Source: a virus. Taken from it: a stretch of 64,000 bases of DNA. The notes beneath the pieces are model-generated. The model searched no databases and was not told where the DNA came from. It saw only the letters and a program-made list of their open reading frames with translations. Shown piece after piece: positions 38,297 to 60,442 of the stretch. The translations under genes were made by a program, and so were the position numbers. The DNA is taken from IMG/VR virus record IMGVR_UViG_3300044732_003010, positions 24,082-88,081 of that record; one strand, given 5' to 3'. How positions within the stretch are numbered: the first letter of the stretch is position 1; each line of letters opens with the position of its first letter.

Positions 38297-38355
38297 CATA
38301 CAAACATATACCTGTCATTATAGGTATATACCAAAAAACCAAAGGAGTTCACGAT
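38286..38355 (+). promoter_or_regulatory. Duplicated promoter/leader, copy 2
   Basis: Seventy bases identical to 37212-37281, with TTGACA at 38293-38298 and the -10 in the palindrome loop. It drives the FGE-fold gene, which starts in its last bases. Confidence 0.7.
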
Positions 38356-38989
38356 GACCGAAAAACTACCCAATCAAGTCGCATTAGAAATGGTGAACTT
38401 ACCAGCAGGTGAGTTTCTCATAGGCTCTCCTGATAGTGATCCCGATGTTCAAAATCATCAAAAGCCTTCACACCAAGTTAAAGTCAACAGTTTTGCGATT
38501 GGCAAATATCCGGTGACTCAGGAACAATATCAAGCAGTAATGGGAACCAATCCCTCTCACTTTAAAAATAATCCCCAAAATCCGGTAGAACAGGTTAGTT
38601 GGGACGATGCTAGAGCTTTTTGTCAGAAATTGAGTCGAATAACCGGTAAAACCTATCGCCTACCCACAGAAGCGGAATGGGAATATGCTTGTCGAGCAGG
38701 TACAACTACTACATATTATTTTGGTGATGATGCTAATCAGTTAAGAGATTATGCTTGGTATAGCGAAAATTCTAATGACACAACTCATCCCGTAGGACAG
38801 AAAAAGCCCAATGGTTGGGGACTGTATGACATGAGTGGTAATGTTTGGGAGTGGTGCGAAGATAGTTGTCTGCGCGGCGGTTCTTGGTTCATCAATCCGA
38901 GGTACTGTCGCAGTGCGGTTCGTTTCTGGCTCTTCCCCGGCTTCCGCTTCAACTTCAGCCTCGGTTTTCGAGTTGTCTGCGACAATTAG
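38354..38989 (+). CDS. Formylglycine-generating-enzyme-fold protein, DGR target type
   Basis: 211 residues of the FGE-sulfatase (SUMF1-like) fold: FLIGSPDSD, FAIGKYPVTQEQYQAVMG, PVEQVSWDDARAFCQKLS, YRLPTEAEWEYACRAG, WGLYDMSGNVWEWCED, LRGGSWF, GFRVV. The C-terminus is the kind of C-type-lectin-like variable region diversified by cyanobacterial DGRs. About 25 residues normally found between WCED and LRGGSW are missing. With this fold in a phage a binding role is more likely than sulfatase activation. Its promoter is a 70-bp duplicate. Confidence 0.75.
   Translation: MTEKLPNQVALEMVNLPAGEFLIGSPDSDPDVQNHQKPSHQVKVNSFAIGKYPVTQEQYQAVMGTNPSHFKNNPQNPVEQVSWDDARAFCQKLSRITGKTYRLPTEAEWEYACRAGTTTTYYFGDDANQLRDYAWYSENSNDTTHPVGQKKPNGWGLYDMSGNVWEWCEDSCLRGGSWFINPRYCRSAVRFWLFPGFRFNFSLGFRVVCDN
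38888..38962 (+). other. DGR-type variable region within the FGE-fold gene
   Basis: Between GGSW and GFRVV, twelve codons are NNC (TTC, ATC, TAC, TTC, CTC, TTC, TTC, TTC, AAC, TTC, AGC, CTC), as expected if AAC codons in a template were mutated at adenines; TGG and GGC suit AGG and GAC. The stretch 38906-38974 has very few A compared with the A-rich surroundings. No template repeat or reverse transcriptase is visible in the window. Confidence 0.65.
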
Positions 38990-42158: not shown

Positions 42159-42604
42159 ATGACGCAATTAATGCACGGTTAGAGGCAATCGCTAACCCCA
42201 TTAATTGGGAAGAAATCTATTACAAATGGTGTGCATGGGGATTATCTATCGAGGAGTGGGAAGATTGGCCAGACTGGTTAATCCTGAAAAAATATTCAGG
42301 GATTCAAAAAGTCAAATGTGAAGAAATTAATTCACTATCAGGTACGGTTAGTCAGATTGCTGCCATGGTTCACGCCTACCTAATAGCACAATCTAAAGAA
42401 AGTTCTAAGTCACAAAGTCTTAATCCTAGTGATTTTCTGCCTTACCAGTTTAAAGAAAATAAAAAATATTTTCTTGATCAAGAAACCGCTCAAATCCTGT
42501 TAGAAGCTATGCAAGCCGGCCAAGTGCCAGTCTTCGCCACTCAGATAATAGTCGATTGCGGACTATACGACGAAATAATTCAATTAGTAGGGGAGAAAAG
42601 CTAA
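41376..42604 (+). CDS. Tail assembly chaperone, -1 frameshift fusion
   Basis: If a -1 shift happens at A_AAA_AAC (42146-42152), translation continues at 42152 in an open frame (RIDDAINARLEAIANPINWE ... WCAWGLSIEEWEDWPDWLIL) to the TAA at 42602-42604, giving about 409 residues. The downstream frame lacks its own strong start until ATG 42365. This gpG/gpGT arrangement before the tape measure is universal in siphoviruses. The fused domain would bridge chaperone and tape measure. Confidence 0.7.
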
Positions 42605-45600
42605 TGTCTTTATCACTTGGTACTTTAGAAATCGGTCTAGGGCTAAATACAGCCCAATATGATAGCGGCATCAAATCGGCTAAAGACCAGCTTTCTTCCC
42701 TAGAGCGTCGTGTCACTAAACTTGGCACGACTCCACTAAAAATTAAAGTTAGCGTCGATGACCGTCAGCTTTATGGGCTAAATAGTCATTTACTTTTAAA
42801 AAGAGTTGACCTTAAAAAGACAGTTGATTTTTATAAAGCAAATCCTATTAAAGTATTTGCTGAAGATGACGCATTAGTTTCTCTTAACCAAGAGTTGCGT
42901 GAATTAAAAAAAACATCAGTAGAGATAAGAACACCTTCTAAAATTGTTGTTGAGCATCGGTTTTCTGGGTATCAAGATCGGGTAGAGAAAGCGATTGATC
43001 GATCTACTTCTCGAATATCGTCAGAAATTAGAATATCCTCTAGCAAAGGAGGCGTTGCAGGCGCAATTGGCCGTATTTTAATGTCTCCTTTTAAACTTGC
43101 GGGACGAGTTCTTGATGACATGGTTACTGGTTATTTCGAGAAACTAGGTCAATCCTTTGCAGAAGAGATAGGCGTAACATCAGCTAAAAATACAGCTAAA
43201 AAAATTAAATCCGCAATAACAAAAATTGATGAACAATTAATTGGTAAAAACCAAGTATATGAAACGTTTTTATCGGAATTTTTTAGGTCAGGAAGTATAG
43301 AAAAAGCTACACAAGCTTCTTTTCCTCGCACCGAAGTAGGTAAAACTACAGAAAGACTTCAAAAATTACAAGAAATCGCATTAGTGCCTGCAAATAAACC
43401 ACTGGAGCGTCTGAGATTAATTAAAGAAAATTCTGAGTTAAATAAAATTTATCAACAAGTATTACAAAAAATAGAATCGGAAAATCCTGGTATTAAGCCG
43501 CGAGAAGCGGGGAAAAAAGCCATGGCTCAGTTTTTAGTTGACGCACAGCCACAAACACAAGTATTAAAAGGATTTGTTAATTCTTTTATTCAAGAAATGG
43601 CTCCTTTATTAAAATTTATACAAGGGATGAGGTCTTATAGAACATCAGTAGAAAGCCAAAAATATTACAACGAAAGAAAAGCAGGTTTTCCATTACTAAG
43701 AGAGGGGGAAGATGTAGTTAGTGTCATTGGAGGAGCGCAATTTAAGGGAGGTCAGGGTGGCAGACAAGTTGTTCAATCAATTGAATTATTAGCTCCTAAT
43801 AAACGATTTATTCCTGTAGAAAATCCTGAAACTGATACTGATAAACAAAACCCTAATCTTTTAGAAAAAATGATTAGGGATAAAATAACTGAGATTGCCC
43901 CTGATTTTGCTGCTGGAGAAACCATAGATACAGCAATTAACGCTTTTCGGCAGGTAGTAAACGCTATTAACCCGTTCGGTTATTCTACGGCCGCAGCGCA
44001 AGCAATAGCCAATACCAGATTAGCTGAAGAACAGGGTAAAAAAGGCAGTGTTGTTAGCTATTCTTTAGGAGGAGCAGATAACCTTCAGTATGCTCAAACA
44101 GCATCATATTTAGGAATGCAGCCACACGCATTAGCCATGGCTTATCCCTTTCTTAATTTTACTCAAAATACACCTAAAGGATTTAATGCAGCATTACTGA
44201 GTGGCGACCCTCTCGGTTTTGCCAAGTTATTAGGAATTGGAGTCAATACTAACCAATTCCGCTCGATTGAAAGTAATACTCCTTTTGGGCTATCAAATCA
44301 CCACCAAAAACATTTATTTAAAGAACAACCTTTTCTAGATTTATTTTATAAGACTATTAATGCTGAACAGCCAGATATGACCCCAGGTCAACAATCAAAA
44401 GTTGTTCATGCCGGCGATAAGCTATATGAAGTATTGGGATCGACTCTACAATTAAAGTCACTTAAAGAAACAGGGGAATTTGATAAGACTCTACCTTATC
44501 ATAGATTCTTGCAAGGATACAGCAGTGGCAGTCCTAACGTAAGCGTAGAAGGATTTATTGCAAAGTTTTTTGAAGGGCTTCGTCTTATATCTTCTTTTGA
44601 TACAAAAGAATTACAGCCTGTGTCACAAGCTTTAAAAAGTTTAATGGAACCTTTAATTCCATTTATAGCTAAAAAATTTAGACAAGGGGGTGCAAATTTA
44701 CCAGAAAATCCTCAAGATTTTGCCGGGTATCAAAAATATCAACAAGAAGCAAAAAGTATAAACAGAGCATTATTAGAATTTAAATCAGGAAAACTTGCTG
44801 ATACTCCTAGCTGGTATGCTGGAAATTTAGAGCCTAATGAAGTTAAAAGACGGACAGAAAAGATTAGAACCGAAACAATACCGTGGTTTACTTCTGAAGA
44901 AAGTACGTTTGGGCAAACTTACACAAAAAAAATTGTTGAAGCATACAAAAAAATAGCTGATGTTGCTGATGAATTTATTAAGACAGGAGGAAAACTATCG
45001 CAAAAAACCAAAGACAGTATAAAAACTTTTGAAGTTGATGAGTTTTCTGGGGAATTAGCAAGTTTTTTAAATACACGCCTTGACACATCAACACTACCAA
45101 AAGAAGAAGAAGTAAGACAATTACAGGTTACTGTTCCTGAAATTTTTCTGAAAAAGCAATCAGCTATTTTAGCTTACAACAAACTTCTTAACGCCGTAGG
45201 TAAAGAAATTCTTCCTGGTATTTCTGAAATCAAAAAAATTGGTGCAGGAATGTCTGGAGCCGTTGCTCTTCTTTCAGATAATCTTGTTTATAAAACTGAT
45301 CTTGACCCAATAGGAGCGACAAAAATTGCGTCAGAAGATGAAATTAAGGCTTATGAGAAATTACAAGGTCGTTTGTCTCCTTTATTGTACAAAGCAGTTC
45401 CAGGTCAGGCTTTAATTACTGAAAGAACACAAGGTCGTCCTTTAAAAGAAATACTTGATCGAATTGCACGTCCTTACAAAGAAATTCAGCAAAAAATACA
45501 GGAAGCTAATAAAGCATTAGAGTTAGCCATAGACAACAAAGATGCGACTAAAATCAAAGAGCTAAAAGTATTAACCAAAGAATTACAATCGTCTGCCAAA

Positions 45601-48600
45601 AAAGAACACAATCGTTTTAATAAGGCCGCATCTATTCTATATCAACAAGTAGGACAACTTGGAGCATCCTTACAGGAAATGGGTGTTGTTCATAATGATT
45701 TAGCTGCAGCAAATGTATTTTTTGCACAAGGTGGAATTACTTCAATTGATCTCGGAAATGCAAAGGTTGATCCGACTAGCAGTGATAAATTTAACGATAA
45801 AATTACTACTATTCAGCGAGCAATTATTGATTCTAGCTATTACGGATTGATGGATCCTTTTAAAATAATAGGCGCAGTTCAATCTGGCTACTCAAAACCT
45901 TTTGCTACTCAAGTTTCTGATTCTAATGCCAGACAAAAATCAGCCATTATCCCTCAGAAAAGAGAAATTAATGAAACTCTTCTTTCCCCTGTAGTAACAG
46001 GAAAAGCAATTTCATTAGGTTCATATACACCAACTTTATTAAAGCAAATCGTTGGTGATTTTTCTTTGCCTACTAAAGAAACTGTTTTCGCAAAAATAGA
46101 TACTCCCGAACAAAAAAAAGAACAACCAATTCTAGATAATCAACCACAAAAACTTAATGATTTAGCTGCTACAGCTAAATCAAAATTAGAAGATGTTTTA
46201 GCTTCACGACTTGGTACTCCTGATAAATCGGGAGAAATTCAGCACCTTAGCGGGAATGAAGATTTTGCAGAATTACTACAATTAACTCTTGTAAGAGAAT
46301 TAAAAACAGCAAGCCTTCTACTTTCAAAAGCTTTCCGAGACACATCTCTTGACGTTATTAAATTTGGCCAGGTTGTTTTTACAGTCTTAAAAGCGATCGA
46401 GCGTCCAGTAATGGCTTTACCTGGTGCTGCAATAGGTAAAAAAGCTATTCAGGTAGGGGGAACGGCTGCTATGGGAGCCGCCGCTCTCCACGCTCTCCCG
46501 ATGGGGCTAGATGCCACGGTTGTCAATACTATGCGAGATATTCTTGCAGGGGCGATGAGTGCTGGCGGTCGGGGAATGGTCCAAGCCGTAGCCACACAAA
46601 TGACTCAAGCTTTTAGCGGCTTGCCGTTTGGAGTGGGACAACAGCTAACGGAAGCAGTAGTGCAGCTTGTAACCGAAATAACTAACGGCACTATCAGCGT
46701 CCTATCGCAGGGGGGAGCAGTTGCTGGATCGGCGTTAATGGCCGGTGAAGGTGTTAAGAGACTCTTAGGAGCGGCTACCAGTAATGTTCCTAAATTAATT
46801 AGCAAAGAAGAACAGCAAAAAATTGAGGGTAAAACCCAGAAAGCATTAAAAGCGGCAAAGAATAAAGCTGATTCTTTGATTACCACTGAAATAACTCCAT
46901 ATTTCGATGAGAGAGTCTTCCCAGCAAGTAACCCTATTCCAGCTAACATCAAGGCAATTAACCCAGAATATTACACGGTAAAACAATTACGAGGATTGGC
47001 CAGAAATCAGGGAATTGACGTACCAGCATCAGGAGCAGGAGCCAGAAAAGAGGAAATATGGAAATCGTTGACTGAAAAATTTAACCCTGATCAGCTAACT
47101 CGACTTTTACTAACAACAAAAGCAAGTGATAGAACAAAATTAGGGAAAAAAGAACTTAGTGGATTCCAGGTTGCATCTACAGAAATTCCTGCTGATTTTA
47201 CTAAGAGAATTGGCATTGGCATAAAAAACATTGGTCAAGAAATTAATACTACTAAAGATATCCAATCTTTAGAACGTCTTTATTTTCAATTAGAAAAAGT
47301 TAAAAAGGGAATTACAGCGTTAAGAGCTAATCCTGAATTTAACACAACAAATATTAATAAATCATTAAGTGGCTTTTTACAGTCAGTTGATAATTTACAG
47401 ACACAAATTCTTGCTAAAGGTGGTTTGGAGTCAGGGAAAAATCTCAACAAAGGTTTAGCTAAAGGATTAAAAGATACTAGCGCAAGCGACATCGCCTATC
47501 AAAACGCTCTTAAAATAGTAGATCAAATTGATAAAGGGCTGGGAAATGCTTCACCATCTTGGAAGGGGGAAGAATCGGGAGAAAATTTTATTAAAGGTGT
47601 GGCAATTGGAATAGAAAAAGGAATTTCTTCTTTTGATTTTCAGAGTTTAGCTAGTGAAGTTGTTAAAGGATTTGAATCAGGGTTGTCACTTGGCGATATT
47701 GAAAAAATTATTCAATCTTATTTTGATGTAAATATTCCTAACTTAAAAGATTTAGCTGTTGAAGCGAAAATGATGGGGTGGGAAGGTAAACCAATTGACG
47801 GGCTACTAGAAAAAAAATTAAGCAAATTCCCTCTATCAAAAACTTTTACTCCTGTTGAACCCCCAAAAAATAATATTATTTCTTATCCTACCCCTACACG
47901 ATTAATTGAATCAAACTTACCATCGGAAAATGCGTTAGCTTCTGCTAGTATTAGACTCAAGCAATTATCTAATTTTTACGCTGGACATAAAACAGCTTTT
48001 GCAAATCTCAAAGCTATTTTAACACAAGGAATAGACCCTACTTTTAATCAATGGAGTTTAAGAAGAGACAGATTTGATTTTGAAAAACAAGTTTTCAAAG
48101 AACCTGTTGCTTATAGCGCAATTAACTCTTTTTCCGAACCGATTAAAGGAAATGATTACTATGGCGATGCTGAAATAATGCTCGATATAGCAAAAATTGC
48201 CAACCGATCAACATTTACTAGAGGTGACTCTGGTGCTTTTTGGAGAAATCCAAGCGAGATAATAACAAATCCTTTGTCTAGCTTTACACCAGACCAATAC
48301 AATCGCAGACCTAATGAGATACTTGAATACCTTGAGGTTCAAACTACTGGCAAAATTGATCCGTCTGATTTTTTAGGGATTAATTTAGGCGATATAGAAG
48401 AAAAGTACAATATTTATGGACGCAAACTCATTGAAGTTATTGCATCTTCTTTAAGTGCTGGCGTTCCAGTATTCGCAAAAAACCTTGAAGCGATTAGTTC
48501 GATGTTTTCCAGTGAGGGCAGACAGTCTGGGTTAAATTATATCAAGGGGTTAAATATTGGATTACAAAATAATAATAGCGAAAAATACGCTTTAGATGTT

Positions 48601-51600
48601 GCGATTGGAATTATCGACGCAACAAATAAAGGGCTGGGAAATGCTTCACCGTCTAAAAAAGCGATGAAAGCAATGCGGTTTTTTTATGAAGGATTAGCGT
48701 TAGGGGCGCGTCATATTCGCTTCGGATTAAGGCTAGAGACTCAATTCGATAAAGAAGTAAGCGATTTTACTTTCTTTGTCGGGACGAGGTCAAAAGAAGC
48801 CCGAAAAGCGATCCTTCAAGCTGTTAAAGAAATGGTAAACCAAGGGGAACGCCTAGCGGCTATTAACGAGATTCAAGGCTCGATGAACACGGGAATTTTC
48901 GCTTCTCCCCGCGCTTTTCAAGTGATGAAGCGAGCTACCGTCATCGCTCGTCCAAAAACAACACGAGAAGAAATTCTTGACGACTGGAATAAAAAACGAG
49001 ACAACATTTTCAACGCTCTCGATAGCATTGAAAAAGCGGGCGTTTCTAGTGGTTTTACAAACGGTATCGTAAGCGGACTAAAAGCTGTTATTGCCCAAGC
49101 GGACGGATTTATTAATTTCCTCTCGGTTGGTGGCAAAGCACTCAGAACTCTCGACCAAGAACTTAATGCCGCTACAGGAGGTATGATTAATCTTCGTAAA
49201 GGTGCTATAGCGGCAATTGGGGGATTTGCTCTTTTCAAAGGAGCAGAATTTTTATTACGACCTCTATTTTTTGCTATTTACGATATTCCTTTTAGGATTC
49301 AACAAGCTGTTACTGATTCTTTACTTGCTTTTACTGAGTTACAAAGAATTAAATTAAATTTAAATCTTGCTGGTGTAGGCAATGTAGAACAATCTCTTGA
49401 CGCTTTAGTGGCAAGGGCTGACAAATTAGGAATATCCTTTAAAGAATCCGCTATTGCTTATAGCAGATTCAAATTAATTACTACCAATTCTCCACTACAA
49501 GCGCAGGCAGATAATATTTTTGAAGGATTCCAAGAGGCATTATCGGCGCGACAAACCAATGCCCAACAGCAAGCTGAATCTTTTAGAGCTATCGGGCAAA
49601 TAGCCTCTAAAGCTGTTGTTTCCGTTGAAGAATTCACGCAGCAATTGAGCGAGTCAGGAGGATTAAACGACGCTTTAAACGTGGCCGCCCGATCAATGGG
49701 GTTAACCACTGCTCAATTTTATCAACAAGCATCAGCAGGCAATCTTTTGGTACAAGATGTTTTACCTCGATTAGCGGCCGAATATGAACGGATGAGTGCC
49801 GGAGGTCTTTCTCTCTCTACTAAAACTTTACAATCGGAAATCTCTCGATTCCAGAACAATACCGAACAACTTCAAATGCAGTTAGGGGAAAAAATTGGAG
49901 TAGTCGCTTACCCTGCTTTACAGGCATTAAATGCCGTCTTGAGTACCTTAAATGACAATCTAGGGACGGTGGCATCAGTGGGAGCCGCCGGGTTACTGTC
50001 AGTCATGGGATTCTTAGGAAAATCAGTCATGCAATTTGCGGCAGCGGGTCGGTTAGGAGCCGTTGCCAGTGCTGCTATGAGTGCATCCTTACAATCTGCC
50101 GGAGTAGCGTCTCTATCTACAGCTACAGCCATGGGTAGATTAAAAGTATCTATAAACCTTGCTACTTTAGCAGGAATAGGATTAATTAAAGCATTGATTA
50201 TTCCTACTGCGGTGATAACTGGTATTCAATTTGTTTATAACGCATTAAATGCTGGTAGCGAAGAACTAAAACAAGCTGTAAGAACCCTAGAAGAGTCTAA
50301 AAAAGCTCTTGATGCTTGGCAAAACAAAACCGATAACAGTAATCGCAAAGGCCTAACAAGCTTTTTGCCTGACATGGAATTGTCTGGAGGAGAAAAGTTT
50401 TTTAATGTTATAACATTCGGGATTGTTTATAATTCTAAATGGCTTATGTCACTATTAGAATTACGACAAGGACTAGAAAACATTGATAAATCTCTGGCTA
50501 CTGGAGTTGGGAATCTTAAAGAATATCAAAAAACTTTATCTAATTTTTCAGGTAGCAAGCAATTTTCATCTGAATTACAAGAAATCAGAAATAATTTAGC
50601 TTTAGTCAGAGCAGAAAGAACAATTGCAAGCGCAAAAGGAAACGACCGATCTGTAGCTGAATTTAACCGGCGAGAGCAGGATTTAATGAAGCAAGAACAG
50701 GAGCTAATTAATAAACAGTTAGGTCCCGTTGGGTCAAGAATTACTGCCGACCTTCAACAATATGAGATGGCGTTAGCATCGTTAGAGCAAAGCTTTAAGA
50801 ATAGAGATATAACTGACATTGCTTACGCGCAACGTAAAAAAGACCTCGTGACTATAATTGGTCAACTAAAAAAAGCGGAACAAGATTATCTACAAGTCTT
50901 GAAAGATCAAGAAAAAGAATATAGAAAATTACAAGTTGCCTTTGATCTTGCTATAAGAACAAGAGCTAATGCCAATTTTGCTAATGAAGGAAATAGTTTA
51001 AGTCGTTCAATTGGATTAAATCAACAATTTGCATCAGGGGAAATTAATGAATTTCAGTTTAATGTTAAAGTTCGAGAAGAAAGCTTACAGACTGCTAAAG
51101 AGCGTATTGCCACTTTAGGCAATACAGCTAACTCTATCTCTAATACTTTAAACGAAAGGCTATCTAAATCTGCCAATAAAGTTTTAAGCACTTACTTTAA
51201 AGAAGATCTAAAACAGCTAAATGTAGCGAGCTTTGGTGGAGCAATTGCTGGAAATTTACTCTCTCCTGATGCTATTCAGCAAATAATGGATCAGTATGAA
51301 TCTGACCTAAAAGATAACGCTGCTTTAAGATCTATTTTAAATCAGGCTAAAGAATACGCAACTGCTCGACGAGATATTTTAAACACTGAGAAAGAAATTC
51401 AGCAAATTAGTCGAGAGATTATTGTCGAAAGAAAGAAAAGACAAATACAAGAAAAACAGGCTAGTAAAGAAATTGTTAAAGCAGAACAACTTACTAATCT
51501 AGCCAATAAAACCTCCTCCAGTCAAAATATTGGCTACGGACTAGAGCAAACCAAAATAAACTTGGCAGCTCTTTATAATCAATTAGCCTTAGAGCAAGAA

Positions 51601-54600
51601 AAATTAGTATTAAACGTAGATGATCCGTTAACGGTCAAAACAGCTATTGCAAATATCACACAGCAAATAGCTGAAACCGAACTATCTTTAAGAGATCAGC
51701 AAGAGCAACTACAATACTATTACCGCAACCTTGGCCGTCAGATAATCGACTTTAATCGTCAGATTGAAGATTATAGAAGACAGATTGAAGATGCTCAACT
51801 GTCAGCTTTTAGAGGAAATCGTTCTCTATCTGAAAGTTACACTGATTTAGTCAGGGAACTCGACAAGAAACTCTTAAATGCCCAAAATCAGCTACTGGAT
51901 GCGACCGATAGAATCAGGGTACAGCAAGTTAAAAACCGTTTATTAATACCCGGTACAAGCGACGCTGGTAAAGAATTAGGTGACATTTTCCTAGAATTTG
52001 TCCAGGGACAAGCTGACCTTGCCAGTCGCGGTCGCACCTTCCAATCCCGAACCGAGGAGATAGAAACTTCCTATATCTCTACTCTAAGAAATATTCGTAA
52101 CTTACAAGAGCAACAGCAAGACGCTGAAAGAAGCCGACTAAGAACGATTGAGGATATTAAACGGACTCAAGAAAACCTTAATCGCACCTTAGCTGACTTA
52201 ATCCGACAAACCAATAAAGAATTAGGCTTTATTCCCCAATCAATCAAGGATATTGTCACAAATCTTAATACACTTCCAGAACCAATTAAATTAATCAATT
52301 CTGAGTTAGTGGCTATTCCCCCAAATATTAAGACTTCTGGAGAAGACTTAATAAAAAGTATAGAAGAAACTGCGGAGGCAATTAGAAAAGCTAAGGAAGG
52401 TTTGATACTACCAGCACCTAGTAATTTCACCCCTGCTCCTGTGTGGAATGGGGGAGGGGTTTTACCGCCGCCACCGCCACAGTCGTCTTCAATTCCCAAA
52501 GGGTTAACACCACGCGGTCGAGAATTATCTCAATATTTAAACAATCCTCACGTCAAGGCCTTTCTTGATATTATTGCTTACGCAGAAGGTACTGCCAATA
52601 TGCCAAATAAGGGATATAACACCCTTTTTGGCCATGGACAATTTAGTTCTTTTGCAGACCATCCACGCCAAAGAATTCCGTTTGGATCAACCAGTTCATC
52701 GGCATCTGGAAGATACCAGATCATGGATTTTACATGGAATGAAGAAAAAGCAAAATTAGGATTAAAAGATTTTTCTCCTGTCTCTCAAGATTTAGTCGCA
52801 TTAAGTCGTATTTTAATGAGAGGTGGATTAGACGAGCTTCTTAAGGGAGATATTCGTGGGGCAATTAACGCAACCCGCAAAGAATGGGCATCTTTCCCAG
52901 GGGCTAATTACCCAGGGCAAGGCATGAAACGGATGGAAGACCTGTTAAGGGTTTACGATCAGTCTTTACGAAAATACCAACCAAATGCCCCTCGTACTCA
53001 ATCCGAACTAGACGCACTGCGATATGACGGCAATCCTGCTAACAGCGGAGCATCAAACCGTATTCGACAAATCAGAAGAAATCAAGGCGGTTTACCCACT
53101 CCATCAACTTCCACCCCTAACCCTTCTCCATCAGTTCAGCAACAAATCACCAACAGATTACCAAAAAATATTCAATCTGTTTTAGTTCAAGAAGTTGGCG
53201 GAAAAACTGTATATTCTAAAAATGCTCAAACACCTCCAGCGTCACCAGCTAGTACAATTAAAGTTATTATTGCTGATTTGATTGCCAAAGAAATAACAAG
53301 CGGAAAACTTTCCTTAAAAGATGCTATCGCCATAAAATTGCCTTTGGTTGATCCACACGGACAATTAAAAGCCAATCAAGTTAAAACAGTTGAACAGCTA
53401 GTACAGTTAATGCTAGAAAAGTCAGATAATACGGCAACTAATGTTTTAATTGATCGGCTAGGTGGGCTAACCAAAGCTACAGAATTAGCCAGAAAAGAAG
53501 GTTATAAAAACACTACTATTTCTAGGTATTTAAATATACCAGGCAGTGGAACTCCAAACATTTCAACAGCACAAGACGTAACGTTAGCTATGCAGTCTTT
53601 AATTAAAAATCAAAATCCTGCAAGTCAATTAGCTGAACAATCTCTAAGACAAACAAGAAATTTTAAGTATAATAATGAAATCGGCGGAAAAATTGGAAAT
53701 AACTCTAAAGTTATTGGTAATGTTGGACTGGTAAACATTAATGGGAAAGAATATATTGTAACTGCTTATGCAAACATTAACGGCAATCAACTAAATAATC
53801 GAAAAATAATAACTAATGCTACTAATGCAATTAGCCAATCCATTAAAGACTCCACCCCTAACCCTTCTCCTGCCCGTGTTTTAACAAAAGAAGAAACAAA
53901 AGAAGGAAAAGGTGGACCAGAATTTAGTAGTCCTCCACCCATAGCTCAGTTACCGACTTTACCTAATCAAAACCGAGATAATTTCTGGGATGCCGATTTA
54001 CCACCGGTTCTTAAAGACAATCCGATTAACTTCCAGAGTCCTAATTTGCCTCCCGTTCCCAATCTTCCTACGGGTAATCTTGGCGCAGCGGCTGATCAAA
54101 TTCGCAACGCTGAAACAGCTAATCAAAACGCTGAGGAGTTTTCAAGACGACTAGAAGAGCAACAAAATCTAAACAAGGCTCTTGACAGATCAATGAAATT
54201 TAGACGGCAGCAAGAGGAAGATGCCCGTGCATTAGAACGTACTTTAAGAAATGCTTCCGAAAATGTCGCTGATTTGACTATCAACTCTAAAGGGTATCTG
54301 ACAGTACAAGAAGAAATTAATAAGAGTGCTACAGAAGTCTCTCGTCAATATCGCTCTCAAATTGAATCACTAGAAGACCAGCGACGGACTTTACTTTTAA
54401 ATGCTGAGGCTCAACAAAAATACAGCGACGCGATAAAAGAAATCTTAGGAGAATTTCAAAGAAAAGGTATAGCTCTCCCCCCTGAATTTACCAAAGAAAT
54501 GATAGATAGTATTGACGCTTTAGCTAAACGCGCTGAATTAGCTAAAGAACAGGTAGCAATTCTTGATCAAGCGATTGAACAATTAGGCAAGAATCAGGGA

Positions 54601-55752
54601 GTAGCCAGCTTAGAAGCATCATTTAGAAAAACCAGAGATACAGTCAGGAGTATTCGTGATCGGTTAAATGATTTAACTATCCAAAGAATGAAGTTAGAGA
54701 ATCAAGCCCGACCGACTTTATTTGATGATTCTGCTATCCTTGCCGAACGTATTAGCCTACAAAAAGAAAAAGAGGAACTAGAGGATTATTTAGAACCTTA
54801 CAAAGACTTACCACAATACGCTGAATTTGTGGCTAATATTCGCTCGGAATGGGAAAAACTTGCAGAATTAAGATTAAAACGAGCGGAGTTAAACGCTTCC
54901 CCAAATCGTGGCGCAGCTGAAAGCTTTTTCTCTGATATTAGAGAAGGAAAAGGAATAGGATCGGCTTTTAGTAGTCTTGGATTAAATATCATGACAAAAT
55001 TTGTTGAGGGTATTACTAAGCCCGCTATCGATGCTTTAACTTCTGCTATCGATGGATTTACAAAGCCGATTACTCAGGCATTTGAATCAGTATTTAATGC
55101 AATCATCGGTCCAGTAGGTAACTTTTTCACTAATGCCCTCAGTAGCATTTTTAAACCAGTAGGTAACATCTTTTCCTCTATCTTTGGGGGCGGTGGCGGA
55201 GGTGGCTTATTTAATGGCTTACTTAGCGGAATAACAGGGATTTTTAGTGGAGGGATTGGGGGACTTGGTTCGATTGGATCACTTGGTAGTATAGGAGCCT
55301 CTAGTTTTGCTTCTGCTCCGGCTTCTGCCTTTTCTCTAGGTACAGGATTCAGCTTATTTAGTGATGGCGGGAAAGTTGGAGATGCCAATGTTCCGATAGA
55401 GAAAAATATCATTTCAGCTTTTCAGCGCGAACGAGCAATGTCGGGAGGCCGAAAACCTCGCTTGATCGTAGCTAATGAAGACGAATTGGTTCTTAACCCT
55501 AAAGAAACAGAAGCATATCTAGAGTACAGAAATAATGCTCCTATTAAGAACTATGCTAATGGAGGATTTGTCGGGGGTAAGCCTAATTACTCCACAACCT
55601 CAAATAACAATAGCTCTAATCAGTCTTTGGTAATTAATAACACCAATAACGTGACTGTAGAATCACGGAATGATATGGGGTATAGTTTGAATCAATTGAA
55701 AGAACGGGAAAATGCACAAAATGAACGAACTAAAAAACGATTCTTTGGGTAA
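42604..55752 (+). CDS. Tape measure protein with multiple enzyme-like domains
   Basis: 4382 residues from ATG 42604 (TAATG overlap with the chaperone stop). It has the typical start (SLGTLEIGLGLNTAQYDSGI) and a tape-measure core at ~2240-2420. Inserted domains: alpha/beta-hydrolase-like SYSLGGA (Ser487); kinase-like GAGMSGAV (~880), HNDLAAANV (Asp1032), DLG (Asp1049); SAP-like helix pair (~1453-1490); ADP-ribosyltransferase-like YGDAEIMLD (~1853), STFTRGDSG (1869-1877) and EYLEVQ (1908-1913); lambda R-type transglycosylase (3300-3450; AYAEGT Glu3328, SASGRYQ 3366-3372, KDFSP); class A beta-lactamase-like STIK (3550-3553), SDN (3607-3609), KIG (3696-3698), lacking the ExxLN glutamate. It ends in a Gly run and acidic tail. 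It sets tail length and probably enters the cell. Confidence 0.85.
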   Translation: MSLSLGTLEIGLGLNTAQYDSGIKSAKDQLSSLERRVTKLGTTPLKIKVSVDDRQLYGLNSHLLLKRVDLKKTVDFYKANPIKVFAEDDALVSLNQELRELKKTSVEIRTPSKIVVEHRFSGYQDRVEKAIDRSTSRISSEIRISSSKGGVAGAIGRILMSPFKLAGRVLDDMVTGYFEKLGQSFAEEIGVTSAKNTAKKIKSAITKIDEQLIGKNQVYETFLSEFFRSGSIEKATQASFPRTEVGKTTERLQKLQEIALVPANKPLERLRLIKENSELNKIYQQVLQKIESENPGIKPREAGKKAMAQFLVDAQPQTQVLKGFVNSFIQEMAPLLKFIQGMRSYRTSVESQKYYNERKAGFPLLREGEDVVSVIGGAQFKGGQGGRQVVQSIELLAPNKRFIPVENPETDTDKQNPNLLEKMIRDKITEIAPDFAAGETIDTAINAFRQVVNAINPFGYSTAAAQAIANTRLAEEQGKKGSVVSYSLGGADNLQYAQTASYLGMQPHALAMAYPFLNFTQNTPKGFNAALLSGDPLGFAKLLGIGVNTNQFRSIESNTPFGLSNHHQKHLFKEQPFLDLFYKTINAEQPDMTPGQQSKVVHAGDKLYEVLGSTLQLKSLKETGEFDKTLPYHRFLQGYSSGSPNVSVEGFIAKFFEGLRLISSFDTKELQPVSQALKSLMEPLIPFIAKKFRQGGANLPENPQDFAGYQKYQQEAKSINRALLEFKSGKLADTPSWYAGNLEPNEVKRRTEKIRTETIPWFTSEESTFGQTYTKKIVEAYKKIADVADEFIKTGGKLSQKTKDSIKTFEVDEFSGELASFLNTRLDTSTLPKEEEVRQLQVTVPEIFLKKQSAILAYNKLLNAVGKEILPGISEIKKIGAGMSGAVALLSDNLVYKTDLDPIGATKIASEDEIKAYEKLQGRLSPLLYKAVPGQALITERTQGRPLKEILDRIARPYKEIQQKIQEANKALELAIDNKDATKIKELKVLTKELQSSAKKEHNRFNKAASILYQQVGQLGASLQEMGVVHNDLAAANVFFAQGGITSIDLGNAKVDPTSSDKFNDKITTIQRAIIDSSYYGLMDPFKIIGAVQSGYSKPFATQVSDSNARQKSAIIPQKREINETLLSPVVTGKAISLGSYTPTLLKQIVGDFSLPTKETVFAKIDTPEQKKEQPILDNQPQKLNDLAATAKSKLEDVLASRLGTPDKSGEIQHLSGNEDFAELLQLTLVRELKTASLLLSKAFRDTSLDVIKFGQVVFTVLKAIERPVMALPGAAIGKKAIQVGGTAAMGAAALHALPMGLDATVVNTMRDILAGAMSAGGRGMVQAVATQMTQAFSGLPFGVGQQLTEAVVQLVTEITNGTISVLSQGGAVAGSALMAGEGVKRLLGAATSNVPKLISKEEQQKIEGKTQKALKAAKNKADSLITTEITPYFDERVFPASNPIPANIKAINPEYYTVKQLRGLARNQGIDVPASGAGARKEEIWKSLTEKFNPDQLTRLLLTTKASDRTKLGKKELSGFQVASTEIPADFTKRIGIGIKNIGQEINTTKDIQSLERLYFQLEKVKKGITALRANPEFNTTNINKSLSGFLQSVDNLQTQILAKGGLESGKNLNKGLAKGLKDTSASDIAYQNALKIVDQIDKGLGNASPSWKGEESGENFIKGVAIGIEKGISSFDFQSLASEVVKGFESGLSLGDIEKIIQSYFDVNIPNLKDLAVEAKMMGWEGKPIDGLLEKKLSKFPLSKTFTPVEPPKNNIISYPTPTRLIESNLPSENALASASIRLKQLSNFYAGHKTAFANLKAILTQGIDPTFNQWSLRRDRFDFEKQVFKEPVAYSAINSFSEPIKGNDYYGDAEIMLDIAKIANRSTFTRGDSGAFWRNPSEIITNPLSSFTPDQYNRRPNEILEYLEVQTTGKIDPSDFLGINLGDIEEKYNIYGRKLIEVIASSLSAGVPVFAKNLEAISSMFSSEGRQSGLNYIKGLNIGLQNNNSEKYALDVAIGIIDATNKGLGNASPSKKAMKAMRFFYEGLALGARHIRFGLRLETQFDKEVSDFTFFVGTRSKEARKAILQAVKEMVNQGERLAAINEIQGSMNTGIFASPRAFQVMKRATVIARPKTTREEILDDWNKKRDNIFNALDSIEKAGVSSGFTNGIVSGLKAVIAQADGFINFLSVGGKALRTLDQELNAATGGMINLRKGAIAAIGGFALFKGAEFLLRPLFFAIYDIPFRIQQAVTDSLLAFTELQRIKLNLNLAGVGNVEQSLDALVARADKLGISFKESAIAYSRFKLITTNSPLQAQADNIFEGFQEALSARQTNAQQQAESFRAIGQIASKAVVSVEEFTQQLSESGGLNDALNVAARSMGLTTAQFYQQASAGNLLVQDVLPRLAAEYERMSAGGLSLSTKTLQSEISRFQNNTEQLQMQLGEKIGVVAYPALQALNAVLSTLNDNLGTVASVGAAGLLSVMGFLGKSVMQFAAAGRLGAVASAAMSASLQSAGVASLSTATAMGRLKVSINLATLAGIGLIKALIIPTAVITGIQFVYNALNAGSEELKQAVRTLEESKKALDAWQNKTDNSNRKGLTSFLPDMELSGGEKFFNVITFGIVYNSKWLMSLLELRQGLENIDKSLATGVGNLKEYQKTLSNFSGSKQFSSELQEIRNNLALVRAERTIASAKGNDRSVAEFNRREQDLMKQEQELINKQLGPVGSRITADLQQYEMALASLEQSFKNRDITDIAYAQRKKDLVTIIGQLKKAEQDYLQVLKDQEKEYRKLQVAFDLAIRTRANANFANEGNSLSRSIGLNQQFASGEINEFQFNVKVREESLQTAKERIATLGNTANSISNTLNERLSKSANKVLSTYFKEDLKQLNVASFGGAIAGNLLSPDAIQQIMDQYESDLKDNAALRSILNQAKEYATARRDILNTEKEIQQISREIIVERKKRQIQEKQASKEIVKAEQLTNLANKTSSSQNIGYGLEQTKINLAALYNQLALEQEKLVLNVDDPLTVKTAIANITQQIAETELSLRDQQEQLQYYYRNLGRQIIDFNRQIEDYRRQIEDAQLSAFRGNRSLSESYTDLVRELDKKLLNAQNQLLDATDRIRVQQVKNRLLIPGTSDAGKELGDIFLEFVQGQADLASRGRTFQSRTEEIETSYISTLRNIRNLQEQQQDAERSRLRTIEDIKRTQENLNRTLADLIRQTNKELGFIPQSIKDIVTNLNTLPEPIKLINSELVAIPPNIKTSGEDLIKSIEETAEAIRKAKEGLILPAPSNFTPAPVWNGGGVLPPPPPQSSSIPKGLTPRGRELSQYLNNPHVKAFLDIIAYAEGTANMPNKGYNTLFGHGQFSSFADHPRQRIPFGSTSSSASGRYQIMDFTWNEEKAKLGLKDFSPVSQDLVALSRILMRGGLDELLKGDIRGAINATRKEWASFPGANYPGQGMKRMEDLLRVYDQSLRKYQPNAPRTQSELDALRYDGNPANSGASNRIRQIRRNQGGLPTPSTSTPNPSPSVQQQITNRLPKNIQSVLVQEVGGKTVYSKNAQTPPASPASTIKVIIADLIAKEITSGKLSLKDAIAIKLPLVDPHGQLKANQVKTVEQLVQLMLEKSDNTATNVLIDRLGGLTKATELARKEGYKNTTISRYLNIPGSGTPNISTAQDVTLAMQSLIKNQNPASQLAEQSLRQTRNFKYNNEIGGKIGNNSKVIGNVGLVNINGKEYIVTAYANINGNQLNNRKIITNATNAISQSIKDSTPNPSPARVLTKEETKEGKGGPEFSSPPPIAQLPTLPNQNRDNFWDADLPPVLKDNPINFQSPNLPPVPNLPTGNLGAAADQIRNAETANQNAEEFSRRLEEQQNLNKALDRSMKFRRQQEEDARALERTLRNASENVADLTINSKGYLTVQEEINKSATEVSRQYRSQIESLEDQRRTLLLNAEAQQKYSDAIKEILGEFQRKGIALPPEFTKEMIDSIDALAKRAELAKEQVAILDQAIEQLGKNQGVASLEASFRKTRDTVRSIRDRLNDLTIQRMKLENQARPTLFDDSAILAERISLQKEKEELEDYLEPYKDLPQYAEFVANIRSEWEKLAELRLKRAELNASPNRGAAESFFSDIREGKGIGSAFSSLGLNIMTKFVEGITKPAIDALTSAIDGFTKPITQAFESVFNAIIGPVGNFFTNALSSIFKPVGNIFSSIFGGGGGGGLFNGLLSGITGIFSGGIGGLGSIGSLGSIGASSFASAPASAFSLGTGFSLFSDGGKVGDANVPIEKNIISAFQRERAMSGGRKPRLIVANEDELVLNPKETEAYLEYRNNAPIKNYANGGFVGGKPNYSTTSNNNSSNQSLVINNTNNVTVESRNDMGYSLNQLKERENAQNERTKKRFFG

Positions 55753-56929: not shown

Positions 56930-57047
56930 TCAATTCCCGGATTACCTCGGTTATTGACCGCTTTTGGGCTTTACAGTAGTTTTTTAGCTTTTTCTCTTCT
57001 GATTCTGATGTACGGACGTTAAGAGGATAATAATTTTTACTTGACAT
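56907..57047 (-). CDS. 46-aa ribbon-helix-helix (CopG/Arc-like) protein
   Basis: Short frame MSSKNYYPLNVRTSESEEKK, LKNYCKAQKRSITEVIRELI, RSLPDN. The pattern (beta strand YPLNVRTSE, helix, RSITEVIRELIR) is that of RHH repressors. Its ATG (57045-57047) overlaps the -35 (57041-57046) of the promoter of the 57115 gene. A regulator of the duplicated promoter is a natural hypothesis. It is too short for standard length cut-offs. Confidence 0.6.
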   Translation of the reverse strand: MSSKNYYPLNVRTSESEEKKLKNYCKAQKRSITEVIRELIRSLPDN

Positions 57048-57077
57048 TTCTAGTAGGCTTATGGTAGATTTAAGTTA
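57041..57077 (+). promoter_or_regulatory. Island promoter, copy 1
   Basis: TTGACATTTCT, 18-bp spacing from TTGACA (57041-57046) to TAGATT (57065-57070), and GGCTTATGGTA within. Copy 2 (57493-57529) shares TTGACATTTCT and GCTTATGGTA with the same 18-bp spacing. Confidence 0.7.
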
Positions 57078-57114
57078 GTCAAATATAGTTTAGCACCTTT
57101 TTCTACTATAAGTT

Positions 57115-57492: not shown

Positions 57493-57529
57493 TTGACATT
57501 TCTGTAAAGCTTATGGTATATTTAAATAA
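57493..57529 (+). promoter_or_regulatory. Island promoter, copy 2 (effector gene)
   Basis: TTGACA (57493-57498), 18-bp spacer, TATATT (57517-57522). Nearly leaderless with respect to ATG 57532; a second in-frame ATG at 57559 leaves a normal leader. Confidence 0.7.
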
Positions 57530-57531
57530 GA

Positions 57532-59235
57532 ATGAAAGAAGGTCGATCCATAAAAGCCATGCTAGTCAAGAAAACTATTGCGGACATAAAACTTAACCTT
57601 AATGCCACTCAGCGAACCTATATTGATCGCTGGATGGACGAGCTTAAAGCTGTCTGGAATTTTGGGCTAGAGCTACTGATGGAATATCAGCTTAATAAGT
57701 ATTACGACGAGCTTGAGAAAATAACAGGAAAACCAGTTAAACGGGTTAAACGTCGTTTAGCTAAAAAAACTCAATTTATTGACTCCCTAAAAAACGAAAA
57801 AGGTAAATCCCTTCCTAATCCCCTTTACACCCCTAAATATTTAACTGGCAAGCAAAAAGTTAAAATACAGATAGCTAGAGAAAAAAGACAAAAAGCAGGT
57901 TACTCTTATCCTGTCCATATCCCTATTCAACGGCGGTTAAAATCTGATAATTATTTTGGGTTATGTGGCTGTATTACAAAAGAAAAATGTCCAGAACTAT
58001 GCAAGGACATCCCTATGGCTTTTGTCCAAGGGGTTTTAAAAAAGCTTGCTGATTCCTGGAAAGCTTACACCAAACTCGATAAAAAGAATTTAGACAGAAA
58101 ACTTCCTAGATTTAAAAGAAAAGAAGATAAAATTAAATCTCTTTATTCTGAGATCAGCAATTGCGCTGTTAGAAAAGGGGATAAAATATCTATAGGTAGC
58201 TGTGGCAAAACATTAGGCGATTTAAAGATTGTCAACAATACTTTAGATATTCGGTGGGGTGACAGAAAAGCCTCTACCGTATCAATTATCAAATACCCAT
58301 CGGGATATTATCTAAGTCTATTTGGTGAATTTGAAGTAGATGATCTACCTGATTCCGATAAAGCGATCGGTATTGACGTAGGACTAGAATATATAATTAG
58401 TACCAGCGACGGCCAACAAATTGACCCGCCCAAATACTATAGAAAACAGCAAAAAAGACTAGCAAAACTGCAAAGAAAAACCGCTAGACAGTATAAAGCA
58501 GGGGAAAATAAAGACGGCAAAAATCTCGCTAAAACTCGTGCTAAAGTTGCCAAAACTCACGAAAAAATAGCAAGACAACGCAAAGGATTTAATCATGCCC
58601 TAAGTACCGATATTGCTAGAAATCATGGCGCTGTAGCCGTAGAAGACCTCAACTTAAAGAATTTAATGCGACGACCTAAACCGAAAAAAAGAGAAGACGG
58701 TAAAGGCTACGAACGCAATAACGCGAAAGCCAAAGGGGGATTAAATAAATCCTTTGCTGATGCTAGTTTAGGACAATTAACTGGTTTTCTTGAAACGAAA
58801 ATGAAAACTCCCAACCGAGAGTTTATCAAAGTTCAACCAGCCTATACTAGCCAAGATTGTCCTCGCTGTGGCAATCGTGTTAAAAAAAGTTTATCAACCC
58901 GCACCCATAAATGTTTAGAGTGTGGATGTACTTTACCCAGAGATGTGGCCGCCGCAATCAACATCTTAGGGAAAGCAGACTTCGTAAGAAGCTACCCGGC
59001 TTGTACCGGGGAAGTTAAGCCTCTGAAGGATTTCGATAAGGAATCAGCGCAGGAGGAATTACTTAGCAAGTCCAGCCGATTGTTACTCGGCGAAGAAACC
59101 CTCGAAACCTTACTGGTTTTGACCTCCGAGCCAGTGACACCCAAGAAAAAAACAAGGAAAAGGTCGATCCACTCGCAACCCGCGCAAACAGTCAACGCAG
59201 GCTATACGCAGCTTACACTCTGGGAGACTGGGTAA
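57532..59235 (+). CDS. TnpB-like/Cas12 (type V-U-like) RNA-guided nuclease
   Basis: 567 residues (or 558 from ATG 57559). RuvC-I GIDVGLEY with Asp282, RuvC-II VAVEDLNLKNL with Glu371, a four-Cys zinc finger (CPRCG at 443-447; CLECGC at 461-466) and RuvC-III PRDVAAAINIL with Asp471: all catalytic residues present. The N-terminal ~200 residues are basic and helical (guide-RNA and DNA binding). Its length is that of small type V-U effectors, several of which occur in cyanobacteria. A four-unit array starts on its stop codon; no transposase TnpA or IS end is visible. The CCCGG/CCGGG hairpin at about 58997-59010 recalls tnpB 3' ends overlapping omega RNA. Confidence 0.85.
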   Translation: MKEGRSIKAMLVKKTIADIKLNLNATQRTYIDRWMDELKAVWNFGLELLMEYQLNKYYDELEKITGKPVKRVKRRLAKKTQFIDSLKNEKGKSLPNPLYTPKYLTGKQKVKIQIAREKRQKAGYSYPVHIPIQRRLKSDNYFGLCGCITKEKCPELCKDIPMAFVQGVLKKLADSWKAYTKLDKKNLDRKLPRFKRKEDKIKSLYSEISNCAVRKGDKISIGSCGKTLGDLKIVNNTLDIRWGDRKASTVSIIKYPSGYYLSLFGEFEVDDLPDSDKAIGIDVGLEYIISTSDGQQIDPPKYYRKQQKRLAKLQRKTARQYKAGENKDGKNLAKTRAKVAKTHEKIARQRKGFNHALSTDIARNHGAVAVEDLNLKNLMRRPKPKKREDGKGYERNNAKAKGGLNKSFADASLGQLTGFLETKMKTPNREFIKVQPAYTSQDCPRCGNRVKKSLSTRTHKCLECGCTLPRDVAAAINILGKADFVRSYPACTGEVKPLKDFDKESAQEELLSKSSRLLLGEETLETLLVLTSEPVTPKKKTRKRSIHSQPAQTVNAGYTQLTLWETG

Positions 59236-59482
59236 CAATCGGCTTGACTTGTTAAGTAGATTGCAAGTTGCCAATTCAGATAGGGCGATAGGTCGTTGCC
59301 ACGTAACAATCGGCTTGACTTGTTAAGTAGATTGCAAGTCCCACTGAGAAGTGATTCAATGTCAATCGATTTCATAGTAACAATCGGCTTGACTTGTTAA
59401 GTAGATTGCAAGGAACCGCTAAAGTGTCGCTGTCAGTCGGTTTTAGGTAACAATCGGCTTGACTTGTTAAGTAGATTGCAAG
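59232..59482 (+). CRISPR. Four-repeat CRISPR array
   Basis: Four identical 36-nt repeats at 59232-59267, 59303-59338, 59377-59412 and 59447-59482, starting GTAACAATCGG and ending GATTGCAAG, with CAATC/GATTG and ACTT/AAGT pairing inside. Spacers: 59268-59302 (35), 59339-59376 (38), 59413-59446 (34). The first repeat contains the effector's TAA (59233-59235). No cas1/cas2 in the window. Confidence 0.88.
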
Positions 59483-59525
59483 TATGAACCAAGTGACACA
59501 GAACCCACTACAAAAGAACTTCAAG
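59483..59525 (+). CRISPR. Terminal spacer matching a nearby phage gene
   Basis: The 43 bases after the fourth repeat match 60308-60350 at 39 positions, differing at positions 4, 29, 40 and 42. Homology begins exactly at the repeat edge and ends before the degenerate repeat at 59526. The protospacer is in the coding strand of the small 60251 gene, and in both places it reads as the same protein segment (PSDTEPT.KEL). Confidence 0.75.
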
Positions 59526-59630
59526 CAATTAAGCTTAAGCCTTATTAGGGATTGAAACATCTACTCCTTTGTGGGATAAATCCCACCGGGCCACAGAAAC
59601 AATTAAGCTTAAGCCTTACTAAGATTAAAC
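59526..59630 (+). CRISPR. Pair of degenerate host-type CRISPR repeats
   Basis: CAATTAAGCTTAAGCC...TTATTAGGGATTGAAAC (59526-59558) and a shorter copy ending CTAAGATTAAAC (59600-59630) flank a 41-nt segment containing GTGGGAT/ATCCCAC. The first matches the widespread cyanobacterial repeat ending TATTAGGGATTGAAAC, unlike the 36-nt array upstream. It may be a remnant of a second mini-array or a copied single repeat. Confidence 0.6.
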
Positions 59631-60273: not shown

Positions 60274-60442
60274 AATAGAACAAGATGGGAGTGCCAAAAC
60301 TTTCATCTATCAACCAAGTGACACAGAACCCACTAAAAAAGAACTTAAGGATAAATTAATAGAAATCTTAATGAAAATCAAAACACTGACATCGGAAAAA
60401 GTAAATCTAATTTATTTTTTTATCAAAGTTATAGACAAATAA
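60251..60442 (+). CDS. Small protein whose homologue is spacer-targeted
   Basis: 63 residues from ATG 60251 (MEKYTLTKIEQDGSAKTFIY). Residues 20-33 (YQPSDTEPTKKELK) correspond to the terminal spacer at 59483. Helical C-terminus ending in a hydrophobic segment. No family is recognised. Its interest lies in being the match of the CRISPR spacer. Confidence 0.45.
   Translation: MEKYTLTKIEQDGSAKTFIYQPSDTEPTKKELKDKLIEILMKIKTLTSEKVNLIYFFIKVIDK

Follow-up and report, generated by a model that had tools for sequence, protein, structure and literature searches.

Type V-U2 systems of clustered regularly interspaced short palindromic repeats (CRISPR), with C2c8 as effector, are already known, as is their presence in a cyanophage. 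In that phage, Aphanizomenon phage vB_AphaS-CL131, no trans-activating CRISPR RNA (tracrRNA) was reported and a role in regulation was suggested (PMC6293099). One review lists V-U2 as lacking a tracrRNA and gives no protospacer-adjacent motif (PAM) for it (PMC11641405). The locus described here lies in a 64,000-nt stretch (the window, to which coordinates refer) of virus record IMGVR_UViG_3300044732_003010, a contig of 88,081 bases from a virus of the bloom-forming cyanobacterium Microcystis. It resembles the CL131 locus in its C2c8 effector, 36-nt repeats ending in GCAAG, lone array, lack of cas1 and cas2 and cyanophage carrier, but the two effectors are only ~40% identical (42% in one comparison) and the repeat and the phage differ. 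Judged from sequence, it is probably a working V-U2 CRISPR-Cas unit by which the phage destroys small Microcystis plasmids in the infected cell.

The effector is assigned to type V-U2 (C2c8) because it passes the curated NCBIfam C2c8 model NF038192 (369.7 bits, cut-off 350), fails the cut-offs of the TnpB model NF038281 (173.6 bits against 425) and the Cas12f2 model NF049972 (43.8 bits against 450), has Cas12u2 as its best PADLOC model (418 bits, with the V-U4 or Cas12n model far below at 176.7 bits) and keeps RuvC residues D282, E371 and D471 and zinc-finger cysteines 443, 446, 461 and 464 unchanged across an eight-member C2c8 alignment. A first-pass annotation had described a compact type V-U unit with a 567-residue TnpB/Cas12-like protein, its RuvC residues and zinc finger intact; the length of the open reading frame (ORF) and the alignment agree, and the family profile search that it proposed makes the type exact. 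Its account of the surroundings also holds. Four identical 36-nt repeats (hereafter R1) directly follow the gene, the first beginning at the stop codon, and the spacers between them measure 35, 38 and 34 nt, within the range of 34-38 nt given there. The locus sits between tail genes, preceded by those for the tape measure and NlpC and followed by one for an Rcc01698-like tail protein; no transposase adjoins the effector, and no Cas1 was found in the genomes of the window phage and three sister phages. An adjoining array without adaptation genes is a further feature of V-U2. An AlphaFold model of the effector (pLDDT 48) was not used.

Within the last ~170 nt before the array lies an anti-repeat that had escaped the first-pass annotation (Table 1). 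Its duplex with the repeat is predicted at -43 kcal/mol, versus -19 +/- 2.6 for shuffled repeats (z = -9.1), and the candidate tracrRNA region folded with the first repeat gives z = -5.2, with 0/200 shuffles as stable. Among 26 distinct sister sequences the anti-repeat varies at two sites, both by exchange of A and G opposite U, and pairing is therefore kept. Since the anti-repeat sits in the 3' end of the effector mRNA, the tracrRNA probably lies inside that message. This candidate tracrRNA would run counter to the no-tracrRNA entry in PMC11641405, which is a listing and not a defining rule, and the assignment to V-U2 is kept. A similar arrangement is described for Cas12n (type V-U4), also a compact TnpB-like effector with its tracrRNA inside the effector mRNA (PMC11641405), but of another family and with the PAM AAN. 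The anti-repeat found here in CL131 (18/21, ~168 nt before its array) is weaker than that of the window, with a duplex within the shuffle range (z = -1.7); z is near -3 at Dolichospermum V-U2 loci and at loci of a second lineage with repeat R2, described below, and at locus L043 the duplex is no better than shuffles. Given these values, the case for a tracrRNA appears strong in the window and only suggestive at other V-U2 loci. An Rfam scan returned tRNAs only.

In 37 IMG/VR loci that were compared, where effector identity is mostly 98-100%, the sister R1 arrays together contain 89 unique spacers. Some spacers are shared, common spacer blocks occur in differing contexts, and internal losses are evident. 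Most spacers are 34-41 nt long; the outliers measure 18, 20 and 59 nt. One array, L024, contains 59- and 20-nt spacers as well as a spacer (number 4) matching a conserved Microcystis chromosomal site over 42/42 nt.

Spacer targets were sought at full-length match thresholds of 70% (86 spacers) or 72% (85 spacers), with shuffled or reversed spacers as controls. At >=70%, 58/86 R1 spacers match six elements, compared with 0/258 shuffles and 0/86 reversed spacers. At >=72%, 53/85 match plasmid elements and 0/85 shuffled spacers do so; 3/85 match sister phages, a level that two shuffled spacers likewise reach. Upstream of the protospacers, counted over 53 sites that are not fully independent, T is found at position -2 in 39/53 (p = 1.8e-11) and at -1 in 33/53 (p = 4e-7); on the 3' side there is only a weaker excess of G at +1. 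The T-T fits the expected type V PAM and is taken as a candidate PAM. On plasmid L135, 20/32 matches fall in the replication (rep) gene, which makes up 36% of the plasmid (p = 0.002), without strand bias (18:14). In the window itself, the match of spacer 1 to this plasmid was counted by eye, and its site is one matched by sister spacer S40. Within IMG/VR the spacer-family pattern was found only in the arrays themselves. As an independent case, one CL131 spacer matches a gene in Nostocaceae genomes that is of primase/helicase type and similar to plasmid Rep; CL131 spacers gave no match to plasmids, nor Dolichospermum V-U2 spacers to phages.

The sites matched by R1 spacers lie in clusters on small contigs from Microcystis genomes, and one spacer matches the 6,987-bp plasmid of NIES-2549. 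Of the six matched elements, four are whole contigs measuring 7-9 kb, and two of these four have terminal overlaps of 127 nt, as is typical for circular contigs; another lies within a 16.6-kb contig, and the last is a remnant in a chromosome. A chromosomal match, L140, was considered as a full integrated element and rejected, being a plasmid remnant. The targets form a family of circular or closed Microcystis plasmids of 7-9 kb. Most of the six share an integrase; they also encode a DUF3987 primase or else a large replication protein whose relatives occur on 107 plasmid records. No plasmid rep was found in IMG/VR. On a single viral contig that could be a chimera, ~2 kb of this plasmid family with its integrase stands beside a phage tail gene (L203:992-2970).

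The contents of the cargo site, surveyed in 68 sister loci gathered by their tail protein, vary: an R1 V-U2 unit, an R2 V-U2 unit, both (L194, L220), or, in L183 and L226, R2 arrays that lack an effector gene. The R2 effector is ~32% identical to that of R1 and 88-94% identical to the C2c8 of a Microcystis plasmid, p1 of NIES-2481. At the same site in L216 (4271-8222), genes for Csf1, Csf2, Csf3, Cas11 and a CysH-like protein replace V-U2, in what appears to be a type IV-B-like module. In the window, an R2 mini-array (about 59522-59630), absent from the first-pass annotation, looks like what is left of an earlier R2 array behind R1. The ~40 nt between the two (59485-59521) duplicate 60310-60346, part of a downstream ORF, and are probably a recombination scar.

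The aims of phage and host arrays are opposed. Among phage R2 spacers 25/46 match plasmids and three match phages, whereas 18/78 spacers from Microcystis arrays adjoining related C2c8 genes (NIES-2481 and G001) match the window phage family and 2/78 match plasmids (Fisher p = 2.8e-8). These Microcystis loci resemble the phage units in having C2c8 adjoin an array, and the R2 repeat of NIES-2481 is common to the sister phages. In G001 a TnpB gene appears to interrupt the N-terminal part of C2c8, and the repeat differs from R2 and resembles the Microcystis type I-D repeat; on account of the different repeat and the interrupted-looking gene, the G001 array and its spacers may belong to type I-D. 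For NIES-2481 alone, with the exact R2 repeat, 5/22 spacers match phage and one matches plasmids (p = 0.001). R2-type targets of phage and host arrays both show a GTN motif, which is also the PAM of Microcystis type I-D; this would fit shared adaptation, as a lead rather than a test. Separately, one R2 spacer from sister phage L188 has a 35/36 match within the R1 effector gene at 59029-59064, beside the anti-repeat and with no GTN, as though one phage CRISPR were aimed at that of a rival.

Taken with the sequence features above, the mechanism that we infer would begin with one transcript yielding the C2c8 mRNA, the tracrRNA and the array. The anti-repeat in the 3' end of the message would pair with the repeats, making a guide RNA of two parts, and the complex would scan DNA for protospacers preceded by T-T, chiefly in the plasmid replication gene; RuvC would then cut and the plasmid would be lost, to the benefit of the phage. 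Recombination between co-infecting phages could renew the guides without phage cas1 or cas2, probably together with adaptation proteins of the host. Use of host adaptation machinery had been proposed in the first-pass annotation and is plausible, though not more, because Cas1 is absent while the arrays turn over. The proposed role as an anti-competitor weapon is supported in so far as a weapon is concerned, but its main target seems to be small host plasmids, not other phages. The alternative of a gene regulator is disfavoured, since the catalytic residues are intact and spacers match both strands of plasmid genes.

Several observations weigh against plasmid destruction as the role of the unit. 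The best matches to plasmids are mostly 72-94% and not perfect, and about one third of the spacers have no known target, and Microcystis phages are under-sampled. Because several spacers are variants of the same site, the effective number of sites is somewhat below 53, and the six elements were picked because spacers match them. Among the plasmid genes none was recognised as a defence gene, which bears on the benefit to the phage; the reason for the attack may be that the plasmids are competitors for resources, encode a defence that escaped recognition, or travel with the phage. Naive adaptation favours small plasmids as a source of spacers. The array could be a passive record, host adaptation proteins having put pieces of the most abundant small plasmids into it with no gain to the phage, as the lack of Cas1 in the phages and the irregular spacer lengths (18-59 nt) would allow. 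This is unlikely, however: the phage retains both effector and anti-repeat, the one locus is occupied by two distant V-U2 lineages as well as by a type IV-B-like module, and plasmids are rare in the Microcystis arrays yet common in phage R2 arrays.

Type V-M (Cas12m) blocks plasmids by binding (PMC11013384, PMC11656645), and a complex of this kind, silencing plasmid replication genes without cutting, would suit a small effector. We give such silencing little more than a slim chance here; the three RuvC residues are invariant, whereas the Cas12m RuvC site is changed, and the presence of spacers on both strands of the genes also speaks against it. Exclusion of superinfecting relatives is quite improbable as the main role. 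The L188 match to the R1 effector gene and a spacer of sister phage G013 that matches the window phage tape-measure gene over 37/37 nt would agree with it, but of 85 R1 spacers only about two match sister phages while 53 match plasmids, and none matches any of 50,697 phage records. TnpB family models do match the effector, yet an ordinary IS605 TnpB beside chance repeats is almost certainly the wrong explanation and has already been refuted by the failed TnpB and passed C2c8 cut-offs, the spacer targets and the flanking motif; in place of the single omegaRNA with one guide of IS605 TnpB there is a repeat array with several guides. Plasmid destruction is the reading that we prefer. A further proposal, possible but doubtful, is that the integrase-bearing plasmids parasitise the phage as satellites or hitchhikers, that the V-U2 locus is a dedicated immunity against them and that the host turns V-U2-linked arrays on the phage. 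No helper-packaging or structural-hijack genes were recognised among the L135 and L139 proteins scanned.

Table 1. Features of the V-U2 locus and its surroundings in the window
Feature	Coordinates	Strand	Basis or remark
Promoter-like TTGACA-18-TATATT, TG before second hexamer	57493..57522	+	Consensus match only, 11/12 positions
C2c8 (type V-U2 Cas12) effector, 567 aa	57532..59235	+	NF038192, Cas12u2 model, catalytic residues
Candidate tracrRNA region, 3' end of effector mRNA (approximate bounds)	58985..59231	+	Folds with first repeat
Anti-repeat inside effector ORF	59060..59086	+	25/27 nt complementary to R1 repeat
R1 repeat 1, overlapping effector stop codon	59232..59267	+	36 nt, identical to other three
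Spacer 1 (S01), 35 nt	59268..59302	+	~71% match to plasmid L135 rep, after TTT
R1 repeat 2	59303..59338	+	Identical 36-nt repeat
Spacer 2 (S02), 38 nt	59339..59376	+	Target not found; in IMG/VR only arrays matched
R1 repeat 3	59377..59412	+	Identical 36-nt repeat
Spacer 3 (S03), 34 nt	59413..59446	+	27/34 match to plasmid L135, site of sister spacers S34/S36
R1 repeat 4	59447..59482	+	Identical 36-nt repeat
R2-type repeat, repeat of second V-U2 lineage	59522..59558	+	36/37 nt
Sole spacer of R2 mini-array	59559..59595	+	Target not found; in IMG/VR only arrays matched
Degenerate terminal R2 repeat	59596..59630	+	Resembles terminal repeats of R2 phages

The promoter-like element sits 10 nt upstream of the effector start, and 45 nt around it are duplicated at 57034-57078. 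Elsewhere in the window, the 4398-aa tape-measure protein (42556-55752) contains a beta-lactamase-like domain (PF13354, E = 4.9e-25). A protein with an FGE-sulfatase domain (38354-38989) varies at its C-terminal end among sister phages, like targets of diversity-generating retroelements; no reverse transcriptase was found in the four phages examined. The Microcystis siphophage Mic1, with an early TnpB-like gene, shows no similarity to the window over its first 49 kb, whether as DNA or in translation, and no CRISPR-like array is seen after this gene, gp49. The 3-kb stretch that follows (L229:5855-8908) is without annotated genes and is rich in different direct-repeat families.

Among other systems, the I-F CRISPR of phage ICP1 is likewise a swappable phage locus that targets a single family of mobile elements of the host, PLE (PMC11656645), but it is Class 1 with its own adaptation genes, and PLE is a proven anti-phage satellite, which the Microcystis plasmids are not. 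Plasmid-borne type V-M and type IV systems are also aimed at plasmids (PMC11656645); they are carried mainly by plasmids, whereas the present unit is carried by a phage and has an intact RuvC site. The V-U2 target, flanking motif, tracrRNA and array turnover appear to be new, although the literature was searched mostly without subscription papers and earlier reports may exist.

For V-U2, an unassigned type V group lacking a listed PAM or tracrRNA (PMC11641405), natural spacers now give a target class and candidate PAMs, TT for the R1 lineage and GTN for the R2 lineage. The guide RNA, probably in two parts and derived from the effector mRNA, would be close to the step expected between TnpB and Cas12, in a phage system with a small effector aimed mainly at plasmids. 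The Microcystis arrays furnish a case of host spacers matching CRISPR-bearing phages, of which none were found in a survey of huge phages (PMC7162821). If the plasmids do parasitise the phage as satellites or hitchhikers, a three-way conflict would be run with one CRISPR family.
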